NCBI GenBank assembly: GCA_030066015.1
Contig: JASJCL010000020.1
Coordinates: 1-64,000 of the forward strand
Source of the DNA: Desulfosarcinaceae bacterium
GTDB lineage: Bacteria; Desulfobacterota; Desulfobacteria; Desulfobacterales; Desulfosarcinaceae
Direction: 5' to 3'
Length of the DNA: 64,000 bases
The position numbers were made by a program, and so were the translations under genes. Below, piece after piece: positions 16,997 through 32,745 of the stretch. Below the pieces are notes generated by a model, which saw only the letters and a list, made by a program, of their open reading frames with translations, ran no database searches and was not told where the DNA came from. Positions within the stretch are counted from its first letter, which is position 1. The number at the start of each line of letters is the position of its first letter.

Positions 16997-18340
16997 ATGA
17001 ATATCCTGCCATCTAACAGCGGTCTGCGGACCCGGGTGGCCGTGCTGGCCACCATCGTCACCGTGATGATGGCCGCCCCCACCGCTGCCGACACCGTCCC
17101 GCATTACCGCCTCAGCGATCTATACCGGCGCGCCGTGGAGAGCGCCGAGCAGATTCAGCAGGCCCGCGAAGCGGTGTTCATCACCCGCCAGACCAAGGAC
17201 CAGGCCCTCAGTGTGCTCCAACCCAGTGTGACCGCCTTCGGCGATGCGACGCGCTACACCCGCAAGAAAACCTTCATGGACAGTCGCATTCGCCCCGAGT
17301 CCGAGGTGAACTGGGGGGTGCGCATGGACCAGTCCTTCACCCTCAACGGCAAGGAGCTGATCGCCTACCAGATCGCCAAAACCGACATCGAGCGCAGTGA
17401 ATACGATCTGGATGCGGCCACCGAGGCGTACCTCTTCCAGATCGCCAGCGCTTTTTACGACGTGCTGAAGGCGGAAGAGGCCGTGGCGATTTCCCAGGCC
17501 AACGTCCAGCGTCTGGAGACCCAGGTCAATTCGGTGCGAACCCGCCTCAACCTCGAGGAGGTGGCCAAGACCGAATTGTTCCGAACCAATGCTGAATTGT
17601 CCGGCGCCAAGCGGGACGTGATCGTCGCCCAGAACCTCCTGCGCCTGGCCAAAGCCGTGCTGGCGCGTTTGGTGGACCTCCCGGAGACCTACACGCTCTT
17701 GCCGCCCCCCGTTGGAGATGAAAGCGTGGCGCCGGGCGACCTGGAGACCCTTAAGCTCAGGGCGCTGGACAACCGTGCGGAGATGAAGGCCCTCAATCTT
17801 TCGGTGGACCTGGCCCGCGACGAGGTGCGCTTCACGCGGGGCGATTACTGGCCCAGCGTGGGCGTCTCGGGCATTTATGCCAACAGCGACGCCACACCCG
17901 CCGAACCCTACGAACCCTTAGAGAGCCTGTCGGTGGGGGTCAACCTGACCTTTCAGATTTACGATGGCGGACTGCGGCGGGCCAACGTGGCCCAGGCCAA
18001 CGCCCGGCTGCGCCAGGCCGAACAGGCCAAGCGCGACACGGCCCGAGCCATCATCGTCGAGGTGGAGCGCGCCTATCTCAACCTCTCCACCCGTCAGAGC
18101 ACCCTCACTGCCCTCAAGGACCAGCTGCGGTTTGCCCGCGAGAACTATACTGCCGTCGAGCGTCAGTTCAACTTCGGCCTCGCCAACAGCGTGGATGTGG
18201 TGGATGCCAATACACTGCTGACCACCGCTGAGCGCCAGTTGGCCGACGCCCGCCTGAGCCTGGCGTTGAGCCGGCTTGAATTGGAGCGCGCCTTGGGCAC
18301 CTTCCTGGTGACCCACGGTCCGAAGCCGCCAACGCCCTGA
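16997..18340 (+). CDS. TolC family outer-membrane factor (second RND system)
   Basis: A 447-residue outer-membrane channel with a signal peptide (hydrophobic 14-32, cleavage near AAPTAADT). Two OEP repeats follow, with long alpha-helical hairpins; recognisable stretches are YRLSDLYRRAVESAEQ, the DYWPSVGVSG strand after the first repeat and a final VVDANTLLTTAERQLADARL helix. The start at 16997 is preceded by GGAGGAAG. It is the first gene of the second efflux operon (OMF-adaptor-permease), the reverse position from the first system. Substrate unknown. Confidence 0.9.
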   Translation: MNILPSNSGLRTRVAVLATIVTVMMAAPTAADTVPHYRLSDLYRRAVESAEQIQQAREAVFITRQTKDQALSVLQPSVTAFGDATRYTRKKTFMDSRIRPESEVNWGVRMDQSFTLNGKELIAYQIAKTDIERSEYDLDAATEAYLFQIASAFYDVLKAEEAVAISQANVQRLETQVNSVRTRLNLEEVAKTELFRTNAELSGAKRDVIVAQNLLRLAKAVLARLVDLPETYTLLPPPVGDESVAPGDLETLKLRALDNRAEMKALNLSVDLARDEVRFTRGDYWPSVGVSGIYANSDATPAEPYEPLESLSVGVNLTFQIYDGGLRRANVAQANARLRQAEQAKRDTARAIIVEVERAYLNLSTRQSTLTALKDQLRFARENYTAVERQFNFGLANSVDVVDANTLLTTAERQLADARLSLALSRLELERALGTFLVTHGPKPPTP

Positions 18341-18347
18341 GCCAATC

Positions 18348-18373
18348 CGCCTGCAGCATGCCGTCAGCAGGCG
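18348..18373 (+). other. intercistronic hairpin
   Basis: CGCCTGC and GCAGGCG form a perfect 7-bp stem around a 12-base loop, between the OMF and adaptor genes. There is no T-run, so it is not a typical terminator. It may shape processing or relative expression; this is inference from base pairing only. Confidence 0.3.
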
Positions 18374-18402
18374 AACGGCACCGCATGAAAGAGGAAAGAC
18401 CG

Positions 18403-19569
18403 ATGCATAGCGAATCCAAGACCCCTACCGAGAACCCATCCGCCGCCCCGGCCGCCAAGAAGCGCAAGTGGCTGTGGCGTCTGATTCCGGTGAGTTTCCT
18501 GCTCCTCCTGGCCTTGGCCATCGTTCTCATGGGGGGCAAGATCAAATCGGAAGCGGAAGCCCTTCAGGAGGAGAAGGCCGCGGCGATGCAGCAGAAACAA
18601 CCGGACATCAACGTGGTGTCCTTGGCCCTGGCCCCCAGTGCCATCAAGGACCGCATCAGCCTGCCCGCCTCGGTGATGCCCTGGGTCAACCTCACCGTCC
18701 TCACCGAGGTGCGCGGCAAGGTGACCACCCTGAAGGTGCGCGAGGGGCAGCGCGTGTCGAGAGGCGATATCATCGCCCACATCGACCACCGTGACTATGA
18801 GAACACGCTGCGCTCCACACGCGCCTCCCTCTCCGCGGCCAAGGCCAATCTCAAGCGCCTCAGCGAGCTGCAGCGCGAGCGGCTCTCCACCCGCAGCCAG
18901 CTCGACGATGCCGTGGCCCAGGTGGAGAGCCTCCAGGCCGCCATGGACACGGCCGCCCTCAACCTGGAGCGCTGCGCCATCACGGCCCCCATGGACGGGA
19001 TCATCAACAAGCGCCACATCGAGAAGGGCCAATACCTCAATGTGGCCGACCCGGTCGCCGAGATCCTGCAGATCGATCGGGTCAAGATCATCGTGGGCAT
19101 CCCCGAGTCCGATGTGGAGGCGGTGCGCCGGCTGGACCGCTTCAGCGTCACCATTGATGCCCTGGGCGGCCAAACCTTCACGGCCAAGAAGTACTTTCTG
19201 TCGCACACCGCCGACAGTCAGGCGCGGGTCTTCCCCCTGGAACTGGCCCTGGACAATCGCAACCACGAAATTCTGCCCGACATGTTCGCCCGGGTGGAGA
19301 TAATAAAAAACGAGATCCCGGACGGCTTGGCGGTGCCCCTCTATGCCATCATCTCCCGCAACGATCAGCATCTGGTCTATGTGGTGGAGGATAACCTGGC
19401 CAAAGCCCGCCGCATCGATCTGGGCATCCAGGAGGGGTGGCGCATCCAGGCCAAATCGGGCCTCCAGGCGGGCGACCAGGTCATCGTGGTGGGCCAGCGC
19501 AGCGTCAACGACGGCACCGCCGTCAAGGTGGTGCGCGCCATCAGCGACATCAAGGAACTCAACGAGTAG
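18403..19569 (+). CDS. RND efflux periplasmic adaptor (second system)
   Basis: A 388-residue membrane-fusion protein. A cytoplasmic Lys/Pro-rich N-terminus is followed by one membrane helix at about residues 28-46. The first lipoyl half (TEVRGKVTTLKVREGQ) is followed by a short coiled coil, then the second half (CAITAPMDGIINKRHIEKGQ) and beta-barrel domains. I start at the ATG at 18403 because AGAGGAAAG lies just upstream; in-frame ATGs at 18358 and 18385 have none. It works with the OMF upstream and the permease downstream. Confidence 0.9.
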   Translation: MHSESKTPTENPSAAPAAKKRKWLWRLIPVSFLLLLALAIVLMGGKIKSEAEALQEEKAAAMQQKQPDINVVSLALAPSAIKDRISLPASVMPWVNLTVLTEVRGKVTTLKVREGQRVSRGDIIAHIDHRDYENTLRSTRASLSAAKANLKRLSELQRERLSTRSQLDDAVAQVESLQAAMDTAALNLERCAITAPMDGIINKRHIEKGQYLNVADPVAEILQIDRVKIIVGIPESDVEAVRRLDRFSVTIDALGGQTFTAKKYFLSHTADSQARVFPLELALDNRNHEILPDMFARVEIIKNEIPDGLAVPLYAIISRNDQHLVYVVEDNLAKARRIDLGIQEGWRIQAKSGLQAGDQVIVVGQRSVNDGTAVKVVRAISDIKELNE

Positions 19570-19690
19570 CGTTTCGTGCACTGGTGAATCGGTGCGCCGG
19601 GAAACCCGGGCGCCCAATTTGCCCGTTAGCGCAGCCGCCGTGCACACACGTCGGTAGCTTCAACGCCATCATCAAGCGGGAAATAGACCC

Positions 19691-22600
19691 ATGCTTCTAT
19701 CCGATACCGCCATCAAGAATCGTATCAGCGTGGTGGTGCTGACCATCATCATCGTCATCGCCGGGATCTACTGCTACCTCTCCCTGCCCCGCGAGAACGA
19801 ACCGGACATCACCATCCCCAATGTCTTCGTCTCCACCGACTACAAAGGCGTGGCCTCAGAGGATATTGAGACCAGCATCACCATTCCCATCGAGAAGAAG
19901 CTCAAGGGCATCGACGGGGTCAAAAAGCTCAAGTCGATCAGCAGCGAGGGGCAGAGCCAAATCAACATCGAGTTCGTCACCGACGCCGATATCGACGAGG
20001 CCCTGCGCAAGGTCAAGGACAAGGTGGACGAGGCCCTGGGCGACTTGCCCAGCGACCTGGAGAACGACCCAGTGGTCTTCGAGGTCAACTTCAGCGAATT
20101 GCCCATCATGGTGTTCTCTTTGGCAGGCACCTGCGGAAACCCCTGTCTCAAGGAGCTGGCCGACGATCTGGCCGACGACATCGAAACCATCACAGGCGTG
20201 CTGGAGGTGGAGGTCACCGGTGGCCTGGAACGGGAGATCCAAGTGGAGGTTCAGCCCGACAAGCTGGCCTACTACAACATCCCCATAACCGCCCTGCAGC
20301 GGGCGGTCTACAGCGAAAACCAGAACACCAGCGGCGGCACCATCACCCTGGGCGATGGCCGCTACCAGTTGCGGGTTCCCGGCGAGTTCGAGACCCCCGA
20401 CGAGATTTTCAACCTCGTGGTCAGTACCCACCAGGGCCGGCCGGTCTATCTCAAAGACGTGGCCCACGTCAAAGACACCTTCAAGGAGGAGTCGAGCCGT
20501 TCACGCCTCAACGGCGTTTCGGCGGTCAACATCTCCGTGAAGAAGCGCACTGGGGAGAATATCCTGGCCATCAGCGACCAGGTGGACGCCATGGTGGAGC
20601 GCCACAAAGAGACCTGGCCCACGGGCACCGAAATCACCAAGCTGATGAACAAGGCCAGGGATGTGCGCCTCATGGTGGCCGACTTGGAGAACAACATTCT
20701 CACCGGTCTGGTGCTGGTGGTGATCGTGCTGCTCTTCGCGCTCGGCATCCGCAACGCCATCCTGGTGGGCATGGCCATCCCCTTCTCGATGTTTCTGAGC
20801 TTCATCGTGCTCTACGCCCTGGAGATCACCCTCAATATCGTGGTGCTCTTCTCCCTCACTCTGGCGCTGGGGATGCTGGTGGACAACGCCATTGTCATCG
20901 TGGAGAACATCTACCGCTACATGGAGCAGGGGGTGCCCCGCATCCAGGCCGCCATGAAGGCCACCGGCGAGGTGGCGTGGCCCGTTATCGGGTCGACCTT
21001 CACCACTCTGGCGGCCTTTTTTCCCATGGTCTTCTGGTCGGGCATCATGGGGGAGTTCATGAAGTGGCTGCCCATCACCCTCATCGTCACCCTGACCTCG
21101 AGTCTCTTCGTGGCACTGGTCATCAACCCGGCCCTCACCAGCATCTTCATGCGGGTCAAGAGCGCCGCCGCAGGGGGGACCGGTGCGTCCACGGACGAGC
21201 GTCCAGCGTCGGAATTCGCAAACGGCGGGGAGGCACCGGTGGCCATCGAGGGCCCCATTCTCAGAACCTACACCCGGCTGCTGCGCATGGCCCTGAACCA
21301 CCGCATGACGGTGTTGCTCAGCGGATTCGGCTTCCTCATCCTGCTCTACCAGCTGTGGTATCTCACGGTGGGACTGCGTACCCCGGTGGAGTTTTTTCCC
21401 AGCCTGGATCCCAACAGCGCATATGTCAACGTGGAGCTGCCCGAGGGAGCCGACTTGGAGTACATCGACCGCATCCTCAAGAAGATAGAGGTGGCCCTCA
21501 CCGGTGGGCGGCCGCCGGAAGCGGGCGCCGATCCGCTGGACAAGGCCACCTACACCCGTACCTATGTGCCCAGATCGCATCAGCGCGCCGACGGCAGCAC
21601 CTATGAGGGACCGGGCGATTTCGACAATCTGGAGTATGTCTATGCCAAGGCGGTGGAGACCGCCGGCTCGCTCAACTTCGATGCCAACGCCCCCAACCAC
21701 ATCGGGGTGCAGTTCATCGATTTCGATCAGCGGATCCACCCCTCCGCACGGGATCTGGAGGAGATCCGCCGTCGCATCGGGGAGATCCCGGGTGCCCAGA
21801 TCACCGTGGCCAAAGCAGAGGAGGGACCACCCACCGGGGCGCCCATCAACATCGAGATCTCCGGCGACGACTTCAAGACCCTGGGCAGAATCGCCGCCCA
21901 GGTGAAGACGTTCGTGGAGAAGGTGCCCTTCGTGGAGGATGTTCAGGACGACTATGTGGAGGGGTTGCCGTCGATCCAGGTGGACATCGACCGTCAGAAG
22001 GCCGCACTCTTCGGCCTGAGCACCAACGATATCGGCTTCGCCCTCAAAACCGCGTACAATGGCCTGGATGTCTCCACCTACCATGAGGGTGACGAGGATT
22101 ACGACATCACCATCATCCTGCCGCCGGAGGAGCGGGCGGTGACCGACGTCCTCCACCGGTTGATGATCCCCTCTCCCTCGGGACAGCTGGTGCCCCTGAC
22201 CACGCTGGGCCGTATCGTCTACACGGGCACCATCGGCGACATCGTGCGCATCAACAACGACCGCGTGGTGACGGTCGAGGCCAATGTGGACGAGACCAAG
22301 GTGCCGGGACCGGTGGCCCGCCAACAGGCGGAAGATCTACTCAAGGAGTATGTCCTGCCGCCCGGCTATCGGATCAAGTTTACCGGCGAGTTCGAATTCC
22401 AGAAGGAGTCGGAAGAGTTTCTCACGCGCGCGTTCATGATCGCCGTCTTCCTCATCTTTCTCATTCTGGTGACCCTCTTCAACTCGGTGGCCCAGCCCTT
22501 GATCATCCTCACATCGGTGATCCTCAGCCTGGGCGGCGTCTTTTTAGGGCTGGCCGTCATGAAGATGCCCTTCGGCATCATCATGTCGGGAGTGGGGGTG

Positions 22601-23041
22601 ATCTCCCTGGCGGGGGTGGTGGTCAACAACGCCATCGTTCTCATCGACTACACCAACAAGCTCATCGCCCGCGGCATGAGCCTCACCGAAGCCGTGGTGG
22701 CGGCGGGGGCCACCCGTCTGCGGCCGGTGCTGCTCACCGCGGTGACGACGGTCCTCGGACTGCTGCCCATGGTCACGGGGGTGAGTTTCGATTTCCACGC
22801 CATGCAGATTTCGTGGGTCTCGGACACGGCCCAGTGGTGGCGCAGCATGGCGGTAGTGGTGATCTTCGGCCTGATGCTGGCCACTTTGCTCACCCTCGTG
22901 GTGGTGCCCTCGCTCTACGCCATGCTCTACACGACGCGGGAAACCCTCAAGCGCTTCATCGACCGTCTGCGGCCCTCTCGGTCGACGTTGCCACCGGGAC
23001 CCCCGGCCCCTGCGGCGGTGGCCGATGCATCCCCGCGCTGA
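19691..23041 (+). CDS. RND efflux permease (second system)
   Basis: A 1116-residue inner-membrane RND transporter with the duplicated layout: helix at about 12-30, periplasmic domain, helices about 340-480, second periplasmic domain, helices about 915-1075. The TM4 relay reads LVDNAIVIVEN: Asp398 is followed by Asn399 where AcrB has a second Asp. An insertion of about 25 residues after the first helix bundle (about 495-520, Ala/Gly/Glu-rich) is a cytoplasmic linker. A cysteine pair (TCGNPC, about 149-154) in the porter domain could form a disulfide. The Pro/Ala-rich C-terminal tail is disordered. GGGAAA precedes the start. Proton coupling is presumed. Confidence 0.92.
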   Translation: MLLSDTAIKNRISVVVLTIIIVIAGIYCYLSLPRENEPDITIPNVFVSTDYKGVASEDIETSITIPIEKKLKGIDGVKKLKSISSEGQSQINIEFVTDADIDEALRKVKDKVDEALGDLPSDLENDPVVFEVNFSELPIMVFSLAGTCGNPCLKELADDLADDIETITGVLEVEVTGGLEREIQVEVQPDKLAYYNIPITALQRAVYSENQNTSGGTITLGDGRYQLRVPGEFETPDEIFNLVVSTHQGRPVYLKDVAHVKDTFKEESSRSRLNGVSAVNISVKKRTGENILAISDQVDAMVERHKETWPTGTEITKLMNKARDVRLMVADLENNILTGLVLVVIVLLFALGIRNAILVGMAIPFSMFLSFIVLYALEITLNIVVLFSLTLALGMLVDNAIVIVENIYRYMEQGVPRIQAAMKATGEVAWPVIGSTFTTLAAFFPMVFWSGIMGEFMKWLPITLIVTLTSSLFVALVINPALTSIFMRVKSAAAGGTGASTDERPASEFANGGEAPVAIEGPILRTYTRLLRMALNHRMTVLLSGFGFLILLYQLWYLTVGLRTPVEFFPSLDPNSAYVNVELPEGADLEYIDRILKKIEVALTGGRPPEAGADPLDKATYTRTYVPRSHQRADGSTYEGPGDFDNLEYVYAKAVETAGSLNFDANAPNHIGVQFIDFDQRIHPSARDLEEIRRRIGEIPGAQITVAKAEEGPPTGAPINIEISGDDFKTLGRIAAQVKTFVEKVPFVEDVQDDYVEGLPSIQVDIDRQKAALFGLSTNDIGFALKTAYNGLDVSTYHEGDEDYDITIILPPEERAVTDVLHRLMIPSPSGQLVPLTTLGRIVYTGTIGDIVRINNDRVVTVEANVDETKVPGPVARQQAEDLLKEYVLPPGYRIKFTGEFEFQKESEEFLTRAFMIAVFLIFLILVTLFNSVAQPLIILTSVILSLGGVFLGLAVMKMPFGIIMSGVGVISLAGVVVNNAIVLIDYTNKLIARGMSLTEAVVAAGATRLRPVLLTAVTTVLGLLPMVTGVSFDFHAMQISWVSDTAQWWRSMAVVVIFGLMLATLLTLVVVPSLYAMLYTTRETLKRFIDRLRPSRSTLPPGPPAPAAVADASPR

Positions 23042-23900: not shown

Positions 23901-24506
23901 ATGACGGCTGACCAGGACTTCAGTGACATCTACGACACCTTCCATCCGCGGATTCTCCGGTACCTGACGCGTATGGTCGGCCCAGATGAGGCCGAAGATC
24001 TCTCTCAGGAGGTGTTCGACAAGATTCATAGAGGGCTGACCCGTTTCCAGGGCAGAGCCAGGCTCTCCACCTGGATCTATCGCATCGCCACCAACACCGC
24101 GATCGACAAATTCCGTTCTCCGGCCACCAAGTATGACCAGCTGCATACCTCCCTGGAGGACGAGGATCATCCAGCGTCAGCGGAAGTTTCGGCTGCGCAG
24201 GACGTCGCGGCCGCTGATCAGCTTGTGATCCGCAAGGAGATGCGCGGTTGCATCAATGAATTCATCGACAAATTACCGACCGACTACAAAACCGTTCTCA
24301 TTCTCGCCGAACTGGAAGGATTCGCCAACAAAGAGATTGCATCCATCCTCGATATATCGTTGGCCAATGTGAAAATCCGGCTCCATCGCGCCAGGGTCCG
24401 GCTCAAACAAAGCCTGCAGGCGGGCTGTGATTTTTACTACGCAGACGGCCAAACGCTGGCCTGCGATCGCAAGCAGGTCCAGATCTCTTCCAAGCCCCCC
24501 AAATAG
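23901..24506 (+). CDS. ECF-type RNA polymerase sigma factor
   Basis: A 201-residue sigma-70-family factor of the extracytoplasmic-function group. Region 2 spans about 10-72 (EAEDLSQEVFDKIH, then RLSTWIYRIATNTAIDKFR). Region 4 spans about 120-172 (LPTDYKTVLILAELEGFANKEIA, then a helix-turn-helix ending NVKIRLHRARVRLKQ). A C-terminal extension (173-201) carries Cys176 and Cys188, and Cys117 opens region 4. A GGGGGGG run precedes the ATG at 23901. No anti-sigma gene is adjacent; the downstream genes encode small cysteine-motif proteins. The sigma factor may sense redox or metal itself through its cysteines; that is inference. Confidence 0.9.
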   Translation: MTADQDFSDIYDTFHPRILRYLTRMVGPDEAEDLSQEVFDKIHRGLTRFQGRARLSTWIYRIATNTAIDKFRSPATKYDQLHTSLEDEDHPASAEVSAAQDVAAADQLVIRKEMRGCINEFIDKLPTDYKTVLILAELEGFANKEIASILDISLANVKIRLHRARVRLKQSLQAGCDFYYADGQTLACDRKQVQISSKPPK

Positions 24507-24766
24507 GCACAGGCCGGCGCCTTACGCCGCGCCGAAGTAACCGCCTCCTCCGGCCGTCCCTAAAAAATCCGCGCGACGGCGTATCCTTTTGACGCGCCAA
24601 TCCGTCTACGCAATCAACAGCGTTATTTGCTGCAAGGTACCAGCCGCTGCTTGCGCCTTCTCTCCCAACCGTTCAACGGGCTGAGCGTGCGGCGGCGGTT
24701 GAGAAGGAGATGCGCTTCTGCGGGGAATGGGGTCATCCGATCCGGTCGCAGTTAGGGAGGTGGAAA

Positions 24767-25291
24767 ATGCCAGTCTATTCAAGAGCTGCCAATGATCTCG
24801 AGAAACTTGCCCAATTTGAATCGGTCCTCATCACTCCTTGCCGATTCTGTCCGGCGGCCAGCCTTGCCGTCAGAAGCCGTGCCCCCTACATTGCGTTTTT
24901 TCGGCACCTGCTGCAGACGGCGGTCTATGAGCGCGCCATCGAAACGATGCAGTCCGAGCTGCGATCCAAAGGGGTGCGGGCAGATGTGTTCCGGAGCCGA
25001 TGGCTTCACCAGTTCGTCCTGTGCATGTGGACGCGGAGACGTCGCATGAGGCTGATGAAACGTGCTCAGGCCTATGATGCCGTGGTGGTGCTGGGCTGTG
25101 AGGCTGCCGCTGAAACGGTTTTGAATGCCGTTGGCGCGGCAAATGTTCGGGTCGTGCTGGGGATGCGGTCTGAAGGGATAATGAGTATTGTGCCGCGATT
25201 CCAATGGCCGGGAAGCATTACGCTCCAGCTCAACACCATCTCCCCGCTTATTCATGGGGAAGCGGGATCGCGAGAGTGGAGCTACCTTTGA
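24767..25291 (+). CDS. uncharacterised CxxC protein in the ECF sigma cluster
   Basis: A 174-residue cytoplasmic-looking protein I do not recognise. A CRFC motif is at 25-28, and a single Cys111 follows a hydrophobic strand (YDAVVVLGCEAAAET). The second half alternates strands and helices (NVRVVLGMRSEGI), like a small nucleotide- or cofactor-binding fold. A basic stretch (TRRRRMRLMKR) lies in the middle. The start at 24767 is fixed by GGGAGGT just upstream; an in-frame ATG at 24710 is weaker. It lies between the ECF sigma gene and the carboxymuconolactone-decarboxylase-like gene and is likely part of the sigma regulon. Zinc or disulfide chemistry is possible but not shown. Confidence 0.65.
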   Translation: MPVYSRAANDLEKLAQFESVLITPCRFCPAASLAVRSRAPYIAFFRHLLQTAVYERAIETMQSELRSKGVRADVFRSRWLHQFVLCMWTRRRRMRLMKRAQAYDAVVVLGCEAAAETVLNAVGAANVRVVLGMRSEGIMSIVPRFQWPGSITLQLNTISPLIHGEAGSREWSYL

Positions 25292-25353
25292 TCCATTTTG
25301 AGGCGGTAGTGGTCGGGTTTGTAACTGGCAGTCACAACAAGGAGGCGTAAGCC

Positions 25354-25647
25354 ATGGAAACAAGAGATGCCAAGCAAGACACGGTTCTGGGAGAGAGAAC
25401 GGCTGTTCTGATTGCAATGGGGGCGGCCACGGCATTGAATTGCATCCCTTGCGTGGAGCACATCTACGAAAAGGCCATCACTTCGGGCGTCACAACGACA
25501 GACATGCAGCGAGCGGCTGAGATCGCCGGCCAGGTGAAAAATGGCGCCCACAGGGCCATATCCGATAGCATCGAAGAGCTCATCGGTTCGAAGCCGACCG
25601 ATAGCGCATCCTGCCTGAATCCAACGGCCGGTGCCTGTCGTTGCTAA
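25354..25647 (+). CDS. carboxymuconolactone decarboxylase/AhpD-like thiol protein
   Basis: A 97-residue all-helical protein of the CMD/AhpD superfamily. The redox motif NCIPCVEH at 29-36 gives Cys30, Cys33 and His36. Members of this superfamily act as alkylhydroperoxidases or disulfide reductants. The C-terminal tail adds three cysteines (Cys87, Cys95, Cys97), which could bind metal or serve as a resolving thiol. AAGGAGG lies just upstream of the ATG. It follows the 174-residue CxxC gene by 62 bases and precedes another small CxxC protein. Together with the ECF sigma factor this looks like a thiol-stress response unit. Confidence 0.82.
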   Translation: METRDAKQDTVLGERTAVLIAMGAATALNCIPCVEHIYEKAITSGVTTTDMQRAAEIAGQVKNGAHRAISDSIEELIGSKPTDSASCLNPTAGACRC

Positions 25648-25693
25648 TGGCATCGACAAAACAGAATCCACCCTAAACGCAGGGAGGCGCAAA

Positions 25694-25876
25694 ATGCGAA
25701 GGTGCGAACAGTGTGTGTTCCGAAGGGCTTTCGATCGGAATCCCGCATCGGTGCTCGGAAGAATTTGGAAATGGCACATCGGCTGGTGTCCTGGATGGAG
25801 ATCCTATCTCTCCTCCTTACCGGACAATGGTCGGCGGCAGCTCCTCGAACAATACGGTCGTACGTCTGCCAATTGA
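25694..25876 (+). CDS. small cysteine-motif protein (60 residues)
   Basis: A 60-residue basic protein with CEQC at residues 4-7, a Trp-rich core (GRIWKWHIGWCPGWRSYL, with Cys32) and a helical end (NGRRQLLEQYG). The ribosome site GGGAGGCG sits 5 bases before the ATG at 25694, stronger than for most genes here. That, its place behind the CMD-like gene and its composition support it as real. The Trp/Cys core looks conserved-family-like, and I recall similar small proteins in sulfate reducers, but I cannot name a family. It may bind zinc. An overlapping 95-codon frame (25702-25989) is a shadow. Confidence 0.6.
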   Translation: MRRCEQCVFRRAFDRNPASVLGRIWKWHIGWCPGWRSYLSSLPDNGRRQLLEQYGRTSAN

Positions 25877-26006: not shown

Positions 26007-26055
26007 GTAAGTGCTTACTAACTTAAAGCTTGACAGTAAGTTAGTAAGCACTTAC
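26007..26055. promoter_or_regulatory. 19-bp perfect inverted-repeat operator of the TetR operon
   Basis: Arms at 26007-26025 and 26037-26055 are perfectly complementary over 19 bases around an 11-base spacer. Each arm contains a TAAGTGCTTACT-like core that is itself partly palindromic, so two regulator dimers may bind side by side. The -35 box lies in the spacer and the -10 begins in the right arm, so occupancy would block the promoter. A related sequence recurs at 26866-26886. Confidence 0.75.
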
Positions 26056-26065: not shown

Positions 26066-26824
26066 ATGAAAGCAAAACCACCCCATAGATCCGATCGGCA
26101 ACGCTTGACTGCCGAGGAGCGGCGAGAAGCCATCACCCGGGCCGTCATTCCGGTGTTTGCCAAAAAGGGTTTCGCCGCCACCACCACCAAGGATCTGGCC
26201 AAGGCTTCCCGTGTCTCCGAGGCGCTGCTCTATCGCCATTTTCCCAGCAAAGAGTCGTTATTTGGCCATATTCAGGATCAGATCTGCAGCACCGAAAGTT
26301 CCATCCACCAGTTCGTGCATGACCTGGAACCGGGCTCCGAAAGCATCGTCAAGATGATCTACCTGATTTTCAGAATTCTGTTCGAAACCCAACAGGCGCA
26401 CCCATTGGGCAATGCGGTGTACCGGTTGCAGATTCAAAGCCTGCTGGAAGACGGGGTGTTCACCCGAACCTTCAACGAACCGCGCTTCAACCAGATGCTG
26501 GACCACATGGCTGCCTTTGCAGACGCCGCCATCGCCGCTGGGGAGATGGTTCCCGGTCCGCTGACCCATTATGAACGCCAATGGTTTGCCCACCACCTGG
26601 CCGTCTCGTTGCGGCTGGCCGTGCTTCCACCGGAAGCGGTCTTTGAATATCAATCCAATCCCATCGACCGGCTCGTGCACGGCGTATGGTTTTCCCTGCG
26701 CGGCATGGGCATGAAGGACGCGGTCATCGACCGCTATCTGCGGCCGGACAAACTGGATCCCCTGATCGAAGACGTCCTCGCCCGGGCGGGCATGCGCGCC
26801 GATCCCCAACAATCCCTCTACTAA
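26066..26824 (+). CDS. TetR/AcrR family transcriptional repressor
   Basis: A 252-residue regulator. The N-terminal TetR helix-turn-helix domain spans about 12-62: AITRAVIPVFAKKGFAATT, then TKDLAKASRVSEALLYRHFPSKESLF. The C-terminal ligand-binding domain (about 80-250) is alpha-helical and long for the family. It is the first gene of the third efflux operon and lies directly behind a promoter buried in a 19-bp inverted repeat, so autorepression and control of the pump are very likely. The ATG at 26066 probably coincides with the transcription start, giving leaderless translation. Confidence 0.92.
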   Translation: MKAKPPHRSDRQRLTAEERREAITRAVIPVFAKKGFAATTTKDLAKASRVSEALLYRHFPSKESLFGHIQDQICSTESSIHQFVHDLEPGSESIVKMIYLIFRILFETQQAHPLGNAVYRLQIQSLLEDGVFTRTFNEPRFNQMLDHMAAFADAAIAAGEMVPGPLTHYERQWFAHHLAVSLRLAVLPPEAVFEYQSNPIDRLVHGVWFSLRGMGMKDAVIDRYLRPDKLDPLIEDVLARAGMRADPQQSLY

Positions 26825-26865
26825 TCGCCAACCTTCATGGAGATCGCATGCGGCCGCCCAATATG

Positions 26866-26886
26866 TAAGTAAGTGTTTATTTAATA
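26866..26886. promoter_or_regulatory. possible second TetR operator before the adaptor gene
   Basis: GTAAGTAAGTGTTTATTTAA resembles one arm of the operator at 26007-26055 (shared GTAAGTG-TTA core). It lies between tetR and the adaptor gene, so it could allow separate control of the pump genes. The match is partial. Confidence 0.4.
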
Positions 26887-26904
26887 AGCCCCAAGGAGTG
26901 CAAA

Positions 26905-28134
26905 ATGAAGATAGACGCACCCAAACTCATAGACTCTCTTAGAGAGCTGATATTGAAAAGAAGATACCGGCCACTGCTGTTGACGGCCGCCGTTCCGCTG
27001 ATCACCCTCATCGTCGTTCCGCAGCTGTCCGGTATCGGCAGGACGGCGGTTCCGGCGCAGATCCGCCCCAACCGCGTGCTTGCGGTGGCTGTCCAGCCAG
27101 TGGCGCAACAGGATGGCTATCTGCGGTCACGCTCCTACCTGGGCAAAGTTGAATCTCAGCGCACCAGCCGACTCGGGTTCGAAGTGGCCGGTATGCTGGA
27201 AGCGATCTATATCCGCGAGGGCGAACGGGTCGAAAAACACCAGCTTCTGGCCCAACTGGATACCGACCGACTCGAAGCCGCCAAAAAAGAGGCCGCCGCC
27301 CAGCTCCTGGAGGCACAGGCGGCCATGAAACTGGCCGCTGCCACCCTAGAGCGAACCCAAAAGGCCCATCGGCTCAAAGCCGTGTCGGCCCAACAGCTCG
27401 ATGAGGCGGCCAGCACCATGGAGCGTCAGCGGGCGAGGGTGGTTCGGGTCAAAGCCCAGCTGGACCGCATCAATGTCGACCTGAAGAAGTCGGAACTTTA
27501 CGCCCCCTACGCTGGGACGCTCGCCGCGCGCATGAGTGATGAGGGCACCGTGCTGTCGCCCGGCCAGCCCGTCCTCGAAATCACCGAGACTGCCCAGACT
27601 GAAATCCGTATCGGTTTCGACCGCGATATTGCCGAAACCCTGACGCCGGGCACCCAGGTGGATGCCGTTGTCAGAGGGCAACCCATTGCCCTGCGCATTG
27701 ACCGCATTCTGCCCGGTCGGGAGAGAATCACACGGGTAGTCCAGGTGATGGCCACACCGGTCCAACCGGAAATGCGCTTGCGCGAGGACGATCTGGTGGA
27801 GGTAACCCTCCAGCAGTCGGTCCGACGGCCCGGGATTTGGCTGCCCGTGTCCGCACTCACCGAAAATGCCCGCGGCCTCTGGTCCTGCCTGGTGGCCCAG
27901 CCCCTCGATGCGGTGCATGCGCAGTCCGGCGCGACGCACCGACTGCAGCGGAGGGAGTTGCAGATCGTGTCCCTGGAGGGCGAGCGCGCCTATGTGAGCG
28001 GCCGGTTTCAGCCCGGTGAGCAAGTGGTCGTGGACGGTCTTCATCGCGTGGTACCCCACCAGCGCGTTCGTCTGGTCGCCGGCGACTTGGCCGACCAGCG
28101 CTCTCGGTCAACCGACGATGAGAGGGTGTTCTGA
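26905..28134 (+). CDS. RND efflux periplasmic adaptor (third system)
   Basis: A 409-residue membrane-fusion protein. A membrane helix near residues 25-45 is followed by lipoyl half GFEVAGMLEAIYIREGERV, a short coiled coil (about 115-190) with alanine-rich helices, the second lipoyl half (ELYAPYAGTLAARMSDEGT) and beta-barrel domains. AAGGAG precedes the ATG at 26905. Its stop overlaps the permease start by one base (TGATG), indicating coupled translation. Controlled by the TetR gene upstream. Confidence 0.9.
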   Translation: MKIDAPKLIDSLRELILKRRYRPLLLTAAVPLITLIVVPQLSGIGRTAVPAQIRPNRVLAVAVQPVAQQDGYLRSRSYLGKVESQRTSRLGFEVAGMLEAIYIREGERVEKHQLLAQLDTDRLEAAKKEAAAQLLEAQAAMKLAAATLERTQKAHRLKAVSAQQLDEAASTMERQRARVVRVKAQLDRINVDLKKSELYAPYAGTLAARMSDEGTVLSPGQPVLEITETAQTEIRIGFDRDIAETLTPGTQVDAVVRGQPIALRIDRILPGRERITRVVQVMATPVQPEMRLREDDLVEVTLQQSVRRPGIWLPVSALTENARGLWSCLVAQPLDAVHAQSGATHRLQRRELQIVSLEGERAYVSGRFQPGEQVVVDGLHRVVPHQRVRLVAGDLADQRSRSTDDERVF

Positions 28135-31100
28135 TGAAGAGCCGACCCTCCCAACCGACCCCGGCCACCTACATGATGCGCAACCCCCATCTATTGGTGT
28201 TGACGGTCGTCATCCTCCTGGTGGGCGGCTATTCGGCCTTGCAGTCCATGCCCCGCTTGGAGGACCCGATCATCACCAACCGCAATACCCTCATCATCAC
28301 CCAGTTGCCCGGTGCATCGGCGGAACGGGTGGAAGCCCAGATCACCGAGAAGATCGAGAACGCCCTCAAGGAGGTGCCCGAAATCAAGGAGGTGGACAGC
28401 ACCTCGCGGGCCGGTATTTCAGTGATTGCCATCGGCCTGGCGGACGAGGTCACCCGGCGGACCAACCGGGAAATCTTCTCCCGTATCCGCGACAAGCTGG
28501 ATGATGCGGTACGCGAATTCCCGGCGGATGCCCTGGAGCCGGTCTTTGACGACAAGCGCGGCGCATCGGCCTTCAGCCTCATAGCCGGTTTGACGTGGGC
28601 GGCGGACGGCCCCCTCCCGTTGACGCTCCTGACCCGGCACGCGGAAAATCTGGCCGATGCCCTGCGAAATGTGCCGGGCACCGACATCGTACGGATCTAC
28701 GGTGCGCCCACGGAGCAGGTGCTGGTGGCGGTCGATCCGGCCGAAATGTCGGATCTGGGGCTCACCATCGAAGGCATCGCCGCCGCGCTGACGGCAGCGG
28801 ACGTAAAGGTTCCCGCCGGGGCGCTCAACGGCAGCCGCCGCGACTTTCTGGTGGAGGTGGCCGGGGAGCTGGATACCATCGGCCGTGTGTCCCGGGTGCC
28901 GGTCATCACCGGTGCCGCTGGTGACATCGTGCGCCTGGCCGACATCGCCCGGGTATCGCGCAGTGTTGTCGAACCACCCGTTGAAATGGCGCGTTCCGGT
29001 CAGAGACGTGCCATCTACGTGGCGGCCAGAGTGCTGGAAACACGACGGGTGGATACCTGGTCCCGATTGGCACGTCAGACCATCGCCGACTTCAGCGGCG
29101 CCATCGACCCAGCCATCGGGGTTCATACGGTTTTTGACCAGAATGCATACACCTCGGCGCGTCTGGGTGAACTGGCTTTCAACCTGCTTCTTGGCGGCGT
29201 GGTGATTCTGATCGTCATCTTCTGCGTGATGGGCTGGCGCGCCAGCTGGATTGTGGGCACTGCCCTGCCGCTAACGGCGGCCATGACGCTCTTCCTCGTC
29301 GCCCTGACAGGCGGCAAGCTTCACCAGATGTCGATCTTCGGTATGATCATCGCCTTGGGCCTGCTCATCGACAACGCCATCGTGGTGACCGACGAAGTGA
29401 TCAAGCACCGACGCCAAGGCAAATCGGGCAGCGCGTCGGTATCCTCGGCCCTGAAGCACCTGTCCACCCCGCTGCTCTCATCCACCCTAACGACGGTCCT
29501 GGCCTTCGCCCCCATCTTGTTACTGCCCGGCAACGCCGGTGATTTCGTCAGCGCCATCGGCGGCAGCGTCATCATCGCCCTGGTCAGCTCCTTCTTCATC
29601 GCCATGACCGTTATCGCCAGCCTCGCCGGTCTGTTCGGCGGCCACTCCAAGCGGCAAGCCCAGAGGCGGCGCTGGTACACCAGCGGTGTCCGGATTGAAT
29701 GGCTGAGCCAGGCCTTCGGCCGAATTCTGCAGACGGCCTTCAGGCGGCCCCTAGTCACCGTGATTCTCGCCGCGGTAATTCCCTTGGCAGGGTTTAAAGC
29801 GGCGTCCACCTTGGGCGTGCAATTTTTTCCGCGGACCGACCGCAACATGTTCGAACTGCAACTCTGGATGCCCACTGCCACCAACATTTATCACACGGCC
29901 GCGATTACGCGGGCCATCGAAGATCGCCTGCGCCGTCACGATGGGATCACCGAGGTGCACTGGCTCCATGGGGGCAGCTTCCCGTCGGTGTATTACAACC
30001 TGATCATGAACAAAGACCGGTCCTCGCACTATGCCCAGGCGATCGTCGAAGCCACTGACTTCAATACGGTCAAACAGTTGATACCGTTGATCCAAGCGGA
30101 TGCGGATCGCCACTTTCCCCAGGCGCAGATCGTGATTACCCAGTTTGCCCAAGGGCCTCCTTCCGAGGCGGATGTCGAGTTCCGGGTTGTGGGCCCGAAC
30201 ATCCGCCAACTGCAGAATATCGGCGATACTATCCGCCTTGTATTGGCGGAGCATCCGGACATCCTCCACACCCAAGTCTCCATGCCGCGCGGCGAGCCCA
30301 AGGTATGGTTCCAGGCCAGCGAAGAGGAGGTCCATCTGGCCGGCCTGCGCCTGACCCATCTGGCCAGACAGATGCAGGGCAACCTTCAAGGTCTCGTTGG
30401 CGGCACGGTCATTGAAGATGTGGAGGAGTTGCCCGTGCGGATACGCTATGCCGATTCCCTGCGTAGGACCTTCGATGACCTGCGCACGACGCGGTTTGTC
30501 GCTGGCGCCAATCCCTCCTCCTGGATACCGCTGAATGCCCTGGGCGACCTCGATTTGCGGGCCGCCTCGGGCGGCATCACCCGCAGGAACGGCCAGCGCG
30601 TCAACATCATTCGCGGTTACACCCAAAATGAGGCGCTGCCCATCGAGGTGACCCGATTTGTCCGCGATGCCCTCGAGAAAGCGGCCTTCACCCTTCCCGC
30701 CGGGTATTCGCTTCAGGTTGGCGGCGATCAGGAGAACCAGTCCGAGGCCGTGGGCAACCTGATGCTCTATCTGCCCGTGCTTTCCATTATGACCGCAGCG
30801 ATTCTGATCCTCTCCTTCAAAAGCGTGGTGATTGCCATGATCCTCGGCACGGTCGCCCTCCTCTCCGCCGGCGTGGGGCTTCTGGCTACCTGGGCCGCTG
30901 ATCTGCCGCTCAGTTTCAACACGATTCTGGGTTCCCTTGGACTGGTGGGGCTGGCGTTTAATAGCAGCATCGTGGTGCTCGCCGCGATTCACACCAAGGA
31001 AGCCGCCCGCCTTGGCGATCCCAAGGCGATGGCCCAGCAGGTGATGGGATCGGCCCGCCACTTGATGTCCACCACCCTGACCACCATCGGCAGCTTCATG

Positions 31101-31286
31101 CCGCTGCTGATTTTTATCGGCGGCGATTTCTGGCCCCCGCTGGCCGTCGTTCTGGCCGGCGGCGTGGGCGGGGCCACCATCCTGGCGATGGTGTTCACAC
31201 CCTCGGCCTACGGCCTGATGACCCGGCTGCGTCCATGGGCGAGTCGCCGAACAACCGCTGCCTCTCAGCACAATCCAGTGGGGTAA
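28134..31286 (+). CDS. RND efflux permease (third system)
   Basis: A 1050-residue RND transporter with the duplicated helix/periplasmic-domain layout: N-terminal helix at about 20-38, helix bundles about 345-510 and 870-1035. The TM4 relay is LLIDNAIVVTDEV, with Asp413 followed by Asn414, so the second AcrB aspartate is absent. Porter-domain signatures PRLEDPIITNRNTLIITQLPG and FFPRTDRNMFELQLW fit the AcrB/HAE superfamily subgroup that often travels with NodT-type OMFs. It overlaps the adaptor gene by one base and is followed by the OMF after 4 bases. Substrate unknown. Confidence 0.92.
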   Translation: MKSRPSQPTPATYMMRNPHLLVLTVVILLVGGYSALQSMPRLEDPIITNRNTLIITQLPGASAERVEAQITEKIENALKEVPEIKEVDSTSRAGISVIAIGLADEVTRRTNREIFSRIRDKLDDAVREFPADALEPVFDDKRGASAFSLIAGLTWAADGPLPLTLLTRHAENLADALRNVPGTDIVRIYGAPTEQVLVAVDPAEMSDLGLTIEGIAAALTAADVKVPAGALNGSRRDFLVEVAGELDTIGRVSRVPVITGAAGDIVRLADIARVSRSVVEPPVEMARSGQRRAIYVAARVLETRRVDTWSRLARQTIADFSGAIDPAIGVHTVFDQNAYTSARLGELAFNLLLGGVVILIVIFCVMGWRASWIVGTALPLTAAMTLFLVALTGGKLHQMSIFGMIIALGLLIDNAIVVTDEVIKHRRQGKSGSASVSSALKHLSTPLLSSTLTTVLAFAPILLLPGNAGDFVSAIGGSVIIALVSSFFIAMTVIASLAGLFGGHSKRQAQRRRWYTSGVRIEWLSQAFGRILQTAFRRPLVTVILAAVIPLAGFKAASTLGVQFFPRTDRNMFELQLWMPTATNIYHTAAITRAIEDRLRRHDGITEVHWLHGGSFPSVYYNLIMNKDRSSHYAQAIVEATDFNTVKQLIPLIQADADRHFPQAQIVITQFAQGPPSEADVEFRVVGPNIRQLQNIGDTIRLVLAEHPDILHTQVSMPRGEPKVWFQASEEEVHLAGLRLTHLARQMQGNLQGLVGGTVIEDVEELPVRIRYADSLRRTFDDLRTTRFVAGANPSSWIPLNALGDLDLRAASGGITRRNGQRVNIIRGYTQNEALPIEVTRFVRDALEKAAFTLPAGYSLQVGGDQENQSEAVGNLMLYLPVLSIMTAAILILSFKSVVIAMILGTVALLSAGVGLLATWAADLPLSFNTILGSLGLVGLAFNSSIVVLAAIHTKEAARLGDPKAMAQQVMGSARHLMSTTLTTIGSFMPLLIFIGGDFWPPLAVVLAGGVGGATILAMVFTPSAYGLMTRLRPWASRRTTAASQHNPVG

Positions 31287-31290
31287 CACC

Positions 31291-32745
31291 ATGCGACACC
31301 AACCAGCCCGTCCGCATCCAATGGCCATCGTCCTGATGCTCCTGCTGCTCACCGGATGCGCAGTCGGCCCGAACTACACCTCTCCGGCGTTGCCCGTGCC
31401 CGCTGCCTTCGATCCCCATTTACCCCCGGACACCCGGATAGATCCGGTCCCACCGGCACCGGAAACCTGGTGGGCCCTGCTGGGTGACAAGATCCTGAAC
31501 GACTTGATCAAGAAGGCGGTAGGGGCCAATTTGGACATCCGCATCGCCAAGGCCCGTCTGCGGGAAAGCCGCGCCGGGCGAAACGCCGCCCGTGCCGGCC
31601 TTTTTCCCGCCATCGACGCCAGCGGCAGCGTCATCACCCAGCGACAAAGCGAAAACAGCCCCTCCACGCTGCGGCTTCCGCCGCCCCTGCCCTCGCCGTC
31701 CCTCACCTCAGATCTCTATGAGATTGGGTTCGATGCCGCCTGGGAGATCGACGTGTTTGGCGGCGTGCGCCGTTCAGCAGAGGCTGCAGACGCCCGTCTG
31801 GCGGCCGTCCGGGCCAATCGTGACGACGTGATCCGGATCGTGCTGGCCGAGGTGGCCCTCAACTATATCGAGCTGCGCGGTCTGCAGCGACGAAAGGCCG
31901 TCCTGGAGCGCAACATCCGTGTGCAGCAGGACACCCTGGCCTTCACCCGTAACCGGCTGGCCAGCGGATTGGGCGCTGCCCTCGAGGTTTCCCAGGCGCG
32001 GGCCCAACTGCTTGCCACCGAAGCGGCCCTGCCGGGTATCGATGCCGGCATTCAGCTGCGCCTGTTTCAGATCAACACGCTTTTGGGAGAGCATCCCGGT
32101 GATCGGCGCACAGCGCTCATGGTCCATAAGGCGCTGCCGGCCCTGCCGGACGCACTTTTCAGCGACATTCCTTCCGAAGTGCTGCGTCGTCGACCGGACG
32201 TGCGGTCTGCTGAACGACGGCTGGCCGCGGAAATCGCCGATATCGGCGTGGCCACCGCCGATCTGTTTCCCAAGTTTTCCCTCCTGGGTGGCATTGGGCT
32301 GGCGTCTGCCAGCGGCGGCGATCTGTTCGAAAGCGCCAGCCGATTCTGGCGTTTGGGACCCTCCATGCGGTGGTCCCTGTTTCAAGGCGGTAGAATTCGC
32401 GCCAATATCGAGGCCCAGAAAGCGCAATCCGAGGCATCCCTGGCCCAATACGAAAAAACGGTCCTGACCGTCCTCCAGGAGGTCAACACCGCCCTGGTGG
32501 ATCACGGCCACGAGCGCAAGACGGCCGCCTCACTGAAAACCGCCATGGCCGAAAGCCAGCGAAGCGTCGACCTGTCCACCGCCCTCTACCAAGAGGGCTT
32601 GAGCGATATCCTCACCGTTCTCAATACCGAATCGCGTCTGCTGACGGTGGAAGATGAATATGCGCGCAGCCTTACGCGAGAATGGACCAGTCTGATCCGC
32701 CTTTACAAAGCCCTTGGGGGCGGATGGTCAGCCGGTCCAGGCTGA
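31291..32745 (+). CDS. NodT-type outer-membrane efflux lipoprotein
   Basis: A 484-residue RND outer-membrane factor. The N-terminus is a lipoprotein signal with lipobox LLTGC (Cys23) followed by AVGPNYTSP, the classic NodT/OprM start. Two OEP repeats follow with long coiled coils (ANLDIRIAKARLRESRAG; then the second around RRPDVRSAERRLAAEIADIGVA). The ATG at 31291 lies 4 bases after the permease stop with GTGGGG upstream; ATG at 31321 would still keep the lipobox. It completes the third tripartite pump and, unlike the two TolC-type proteins earlier, is lipid-anchored. Confidence 0.92.
   Translation: MRHQPARPHPMAIVLMLLLLTGCAVGPNYTSPALPVPAAFDPHLPPDTRIDPVPPAPETWWALLGDKILNDLIKKAVGANLDIRIAKARLRESRAGRNAARAGLFPAIDASGSVITQRQSENSPSTLRLPPPLPSPSLTSDLYEIGFDAAWEIDVFGGVRRSAEAADARLAAVRANRDDVIRIVLAEVALNYIELRGLQRRKAVLERNIRVQQDTLAFTRNRLASGLGAALEVSQARAQLLATEAALPGIDAGIQLRLFQINTLLGEHPGDRRTALMVHKALPALPDALFSDIPSEVLRRRPDVRSAERRLAAEIADIGVATADLFPKFSLLGGIGLASASGGDLFESASRFWRLGPSMRWSLFQGGRIRANIEAQKAQSEASLAQYEKTVLTVLQEVNTALVDHGHERKTAASLKTAMAESQRSVDLSTALYQEGLSDILTVLNTESRLLTVEDEYARSLTREWTSLIRLYKALGGGWSAGPG

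Follow-up and report, generated by a model that had tools for sequence, protein, structure and literature searches.

Analysis of the window, the whole 64,000-nucleotide stretch of DNA from a Desulfosarcinaceae bacterium, revealed an ECF sigma factor gene followed by three small genes, and comparison with related loci provides good support for a sigma regulon with a dedicated promoter, since the promoter is specific to the clade of this sigma factor and the gene unit is conserved. We consider it fairly probable, from sequence and structural models, that this is a one-component ECF sigma regulon, in which a sigma factor that carries its own sensor would drive the small genes, designated p174, CMD and p60.

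The cassette and its surroundings

All genes of the cassette lie on the + strand. The sigma gene (23901..24506) encodes 201 amino acids, with matches to Pfam sigma-70 region 2 at residues 11-73 and region 4 (r4_2) at 116-168 and nothing between them, the arrangement of sigma2 and sigma4 without sigma3 that marks an ECF sigma factor. Its three cysteine codons are located at 24249-24251 (C117), 24426-24428 (C176) and 24462-24464 (C188). The operon begins with p174 (24767..25291; 174 amino acids), a member of an unnamed family with conserved cysteines, continues with a CMD/AhpD-like protein (25354..25647; PF02627, E 1.4e-5) that has a CxxC motif (NCIPC) and a cysteine-rich C-terminal tail, and ends with p60 (25694..25876), a Cys/Trp-rich protein of 60 amino acids. 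Each of p174, CMD and p60 is preceded by a good Shine-Dalgarno sequence, and the sigma gene by a run of G. The earlier note, which had described these four genes and placed the sigma cysteines at 117, 176 and 188, was correct in its reading frames and coordinates.

Neither p174 nor p60 matched any family in Pfam or NCBIfam. In p174, the CxxC motif reads CRFC, cysteines 25, 28 and 86 are invariant in the family and cysteine 111 is nearly so. The GCEAA motif had led to the guess that p174 is a relative of MTHFR_C, which we rejected following the examination of 23 members, as these gave weak Pfam matches only, the best Foldseek E value was 0.013 and the VIA-align Z scores were below 8; such weak scores leave only a common Rossmann-like arrangement for p174, as its predicted structure suggests. 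A putative selenocysteine codon in the p174 gene of locus L052 was also dismissed, the TGA being the terminal stop.

Upstream of the cassette lies mtgA (monofunctional transglycosylase), and downstream lie a TetR gene and an RND operon; with these flanks, no anti-sigma gene is adjacent in the window, in agreement with the earlier note. Judged from the open reading frames, two RND-type efflux gene sets flank the cassette, one at 16997-23041 (outer-membrane channel, fusion protein and RND pump) and the other at 26066-32745 (TetR, fusion protein, RND pump and outer-membrane channel). Just upstream of the TetR gene (26066), an 18-bp inverted repeat (TAAGTGCTTACTAACTTA / TAAGTTAGTAAGCACTTA; 26008-26054) surrounds a TTGACA promoter-like site and is likely the TetR operator.

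A gene unit conserved across genomes

A second cassette was found in the same genome on contig C118 (locus L021), with the order sigma, SHOCT protein, DGC protein, p174, CMD and p60, an order shared by genome G021. The sigma, p174, CMD and p60 of this cassette are 55-61% identical to the window copies. Unlike L021, the window cassette is without SHOCT and DGC, and no remnants of either were detected in the gap at 24507-24766. Related blocks were observed in other Desulfobacterota, Zixibacteria, Acidobacteriota and Sporomusa. All four genes occur jointly in L021, L026, L027, L029 and L048; p60, 55-58% identical to the copies in L021 and L022, is present too in L027, L029 and L048. Because of this joint recurrence, and because the three sigma cysteines are invariant in 36 homologues, the grouping of sigma, p174, CMD and p60 exceeds chance and, as judged from these comparisons, is a conserved unit. 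The co-occurrence in other genomes on which the earlier note had staked its reading was thus found.

We approached the unit from both ends. Scanning genome contigs with p174 yielded 26 loci (Desulfobacterota, Zixibacteria, Thermoanaerobaculia, a Phycisphaerae bin and Sporomusa), and 14 of these 26, selected by p174 alone, have a sigma-clade gene within about 8 kb. A sigma profile was run on a sample of 297 genomes of the phylum, in which a clear score gap separated the sigma clade from ordinary ECFs. CMD was present in 18 of the 24 loci selected by sigma, as opposed to 0 of 19 control ECF loci (p = 2e-7), and p174 in none of the 18 sigma-selected loci in which it was sought, so that CMD is the core partner, with p174 and p60 accessory.

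The absence of p174 from these loci shows that it is not an obligatory partner and, like the missing SHOCT and DGC genes of the window, would agree with an alternative in which the small genes have no link to the sigma factor beyond sharing a passive genomic island with it. However, the frequency of clade sigma genes near p174, together with a clade-specific promoter standing ahead of p174, CMD, SHOCT or DGC, makes this alternative extremely improbable.

Beside the C118 cassette, a SpoIIE/PP2C-like phosphatase gene (L021:94-885, - strand) contains one in-frame TGA, whose position is shared by all the close homologues that were aligned (57-62% identity; L027:2115-2906, L168, L169 and L170); a further copy, in G382, also has one TGA, and SelB was detected over cut-off in the window's own genome. 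This phosphatase is a candidate selenoprotein. No clear SECIS was recognized behind the TGA: Rfam gave no match, and the z-scores for folding were close to zero. In a separate locus, an in-frame TAG (L034:498-500) breaks the DGC gene where relatives have Glu.

A promoter specific to the sigma clade

By comparing the stretches behind the sigma genes of the window and of L021, we identified GTATCC-N16-CGTCTA, which in the window sits at 24581-24608 (+) between the sigma gene and the p174-CMD-p60 operon. The 5.7 Mb genome contains just three exact matches: a single one in the window and a pair at the C118 cassette. Only exact genome matches were used, because at one mismatch the reversed control (38 matches) outnumbered the motif (16). 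The window site reads CGTATCC and falls within the clade's TGTATCC dialect; where relatives lack TGTATCC, TGTAACC precedes the pair of CMD and sigma genes.

The joint pattern TGTA(A/T)CC-N16-CGTC was found at 52 sites in 37 of the 41 sigma-clade loci, compared to none in 31 control loci (30 ordinary-ECF loci and the genome's own ars locus), and at 8 sites in 7 of 15 loci that had p174 only. When spacers of 15-17 nt were allowed, 57 of 61 sites had one of 16 nt. Among loci selected by sigma alone, 21 of 24 carried the motif, versus 0 of 19 controls (p = 2e-9). For the TATCC half, 23 sites were observed against a mean of 1.65 in first-order Markov simulations. As the joint pattern was written after inspection of the sequences, it is the controls that carry the argument. 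The first gene behind the sites was most commonly CMD (20), followed by SHOCT (11), p174 (4) and DGC (4), the remainder being rhodanese or small cysteine-rich proteins. The earlier note had treated transcription from unrelated promoters as the finding that would count against it; instead, p174, CMD and p60 stand behind an ECF-type promoter specific to the sigma clade.

On the sigma tree, the two -35 dialects require one change, and residue 143 of the sigma factor is N or A in one dialect and H or Q in the other. This single change and the accompanying difference at residue 143 are the main evidence that the sigma factor itself reads the promoter, and we infer such recognition. The C118 copy has an extra site ahead of a Nif11-DUF1638-DUF3786 series preceding the sigma gene, which suggests that sigma may be autoregulated there. 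No clade promoter was found upstream of the window sigma.

Cysteines of the sigma factor and the place of an anti-sigma factor

The window sigma shares 57-66% identity with its paralogue and homologues. Across 36 sigma homologues with 28-66% identity to it, only 11 columns are invariant, and C117, C176 and C188 are among them. The protein extends about 26 residues beyond the last sigma4 helix, and two cysteines, 12 residues apart, lie in this extension. The AlphaFold2 model (mean pLDDT 79, tail 60-76) shows a short hairpin at the C-terminus that bears C176 and C188, and it places C117 within the helix that enters sigma4. In one subclade of the sigma tree (L109-L111), C117 and the tail hairpin are both missing, the L109 protein still ending in CQ; despite this loss, TGTAACC sites are kept near the sigma genes of all three loci. 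The loss is a single evolutionary event and does not amount to a statistical test.

We infer that sensing by the sigma factor's own cysteines is likely, while the invariant cysteines could be structural instead. The self-sensing sigma factor proposed in the earlier note fits the three invariant cysteines, of which two lie in the short extension at the C-terminus, the joint loss of C117 and the hairpin, and the lack of an adjacent anti-sigma gene.

Another explanation would be control by a distinct anti-sigma factor, possibly thiol- or zinc-binding, whose gene lies elsewhere in the genome, with the sigma cysteines serving as structural elements or as a docking surface. A zf-HC2 protein with a cysteine-rich tail is encoded directly after sigma in Zixibacteria (L030, L035, L039, L040 and L043), so an anti-sigma factor may operate in some members of the clade, and the absence of an adjacent anti-sigma gene described in the earlier note holds for the window but not clade-wide. 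Against this explanation, no anti-sigma gene adjoins sigma in the window, L021, L026, L029 or the loci in which CMD and sigma are paired, the zixibacterial sigma factors retain all three cysteines too, and searching the window's own genome with the zixibacterial zf-HC2 protein gave no match, albeit a weak negative. We therefore regard a separate anti-sigma factor as quite unlikely. In the same five Zixibacteria loci and in L050, the zf-HC2 gene stands ahead of small cysteine-rich proteins behind TGTATCC sites, and directly 3' of sigma wherever sigma was detected.

Candidate signals

The gene content of related loci hints that the signal is arsenic or some other thiophilic metal. A gene for ArsM (NF008823, over cut-off) adjoins or lies near sigma in L023, L096, L099, L105 and L108, and one for Acr3 (TIGR00832) in L096 and L103; weak curated matches of the CMD protein also include arsenic-linked families. 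The link to ArsM or Acr3 was present in 6 of 41 loci versus 0 of 19 matched ECF controls, a count that sets aside one weak Acr3-like match in a control and a difference that is not significant (Fisher p = 0.16); measured against 1-4 ArsM genes per genome, a number that we assumed, the link would be significant (P about 1e-6 to 6e-4). A methyltransferase in L026 scored far below the cut-off and was rejected as ArsM. No ars genes lie near the window cassette. The genome's own Acr3 and ArsM genes form an ars operon on contig C152, which was discarded as a sigma target because it has no clade promoter site. That the window cassette has a role connected with arsenic is accordingly a lead and not a result. 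The thiol or metal stress named in the earlier note thus gains some support on the metalloid side from related loci without being settled, and its suggestion of oxygen exposure finds nothing in the neighbourhoods that points to oxygen in particular.

We advance only tentatively, and at low confidence, the more specific proposal that the sigma factor is an arsenite or soft-metalloid sensor acting via C117, C176 and C188, which would run an undescribed thiol-protein detoxification regulon from a promoter whose -35 specificity changed a single time in the family. Another doubtful candidate is a redox switch, in which C117 and the tail cysteines would form a reversible disulphide upon exposure to oxidant or oxygen and a CMD/AhpD-like peroxidase would remove the oxidant. 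The CMD family with its CxxC motif, the inclusion of peroxidase-like and AhpD-domain families among the weak NCBIfam matches of the CMD protein, and the many hosts in lineages of anaerobes are consistent with such a switch, but the partners that could be recognized comprise ArsM, Acr3, ArsR, rhodanese, Fe-S and small cysteine-rich proteins, and oxygen defence is not specifically indicated.

Comparison with known systems

By analogy, the sigma regulon would work like ECF41, CorE and OrbS, while departing from each in defining features that we compared. ECF41 sigma factors have no adjacent anti-sigma, count a neighbouring CMD gene among their main targets and use a dedicated promoter whose spacer is 16 +/- 1 and whose -10 is CGTC (PMC3426412). 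The window cassette resembles them in all three respects, and the ECF41 neighbourhood of a CMD, oxidoreductase or epimerase gene without an anti-sigma recurs here, CMD being present both in the window and in 18 of the 24 sigma-selected loci. By contrast, the C-terminal regulatory extension of ECF41 is large and its -35 reads TGTCACA, whereas the present clade has a short two-cysteine hairpin and GTATCC at the window site, or TGTA(A/T)CC over 61 sites.

CorE and CorE2, of the former ECF44, now ECF238, have no anti-sigma and carry cysteines in a C-terminal extension and at a further site (PMC8999054, PMC10141476), and CorE senses metal on board by its C-terminal cysteines (PMC8999054). The window sigma likewise has C-terminal cysteines, one further cysteine and no adjacent anti-sigma; it differs in having no cysteine in residues 74-116, where CorE has a CxC in the sigma2-sigma4 linker, and only two cysteines in its last 26 residues in place of a C-terminal cysteine-rich domain. 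The iron-starvation sigma factor OrbS (ECF243) has a short C-terminal region with metal-responsive cysteines and no anti-sigma (PMC9023288), much as in the window; its four clustered C-terminal cysteines (196, 199, 203 and 209) respond to Fe(II) and control a siderophore regulon (PMC9023288), compared to two tail cysteines 12 residues apart here.

SigZ (TIGR02959, NF007215) is among the best-scoring curated families for the window sigma, which at 106.8 bits remains below the cut-off of 168.65; a related tail (C.FE.D) is present in a SigZ-like protein encoded in L113. As for ArsR/ArsM/Acr3 operons, six loci have related sigma genes, or pairs of CMD and sigma, within or next to genes of this kind, in contrast to the window cassette, which has no nearby ars gene, and to the genome's own ars operon, which lacks the clade promoter. 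We found no published description of this sigma regulon, although the 2021 ECF classification, which lies outside our comparison, may already number the clade; a look through the literature for ECFs associated with ArsM, with SHOCT plus CMD, or with promoters of the TGTAACC type yielded nothing relevant.

Proposed mechanism and implications

In summary, the gene unit, the invariant cysteines and the tie between promoter and sigma clade are established by comparison across loci, and we propose a model of how they may act together. The sigma factor's own sensor would consist of Cys117, within the helix that enters sigma4, together with the hairpin residues Cys176 and Cys188; when a thiophilic metal or metalloid binds, or the thiols are modified, this would change whether sigma forms active holoenzyme. 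The active holoenzyme would read TGTA(T/A)CC-N16-CGTC and, in the window, transcribe p174, CMD and p60 from 24581-24608. The products, a Rossmann-like protein with four conserved cysteines, an AhpD-like CxxC protein and a Cys/Trp protein, are small thiol proteins that would counter the insult by buffering, reduction or detoxification. Both the direction of the response and the signal are guesses, with arsenite or a different thiophilic metal(loid) as the likeliest signal.

The sigma factor and its promoter, with three exact sites in the genome, represent a testable system whose candidate on-board sensor comprises no more than three cysteines. The loci that have lost C117 and the tail hairpin (L109-L111) provide a natural test of the sensor idea, and two promoter dialects track sigma residue 143. 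If a ligand is confirmed, a compact self-sensing sigma factor would join the few that are known, such as CorE and OrbS, and the unannotated families p174, p60 and the small cysteine-rich proteins would gain their first functional context.
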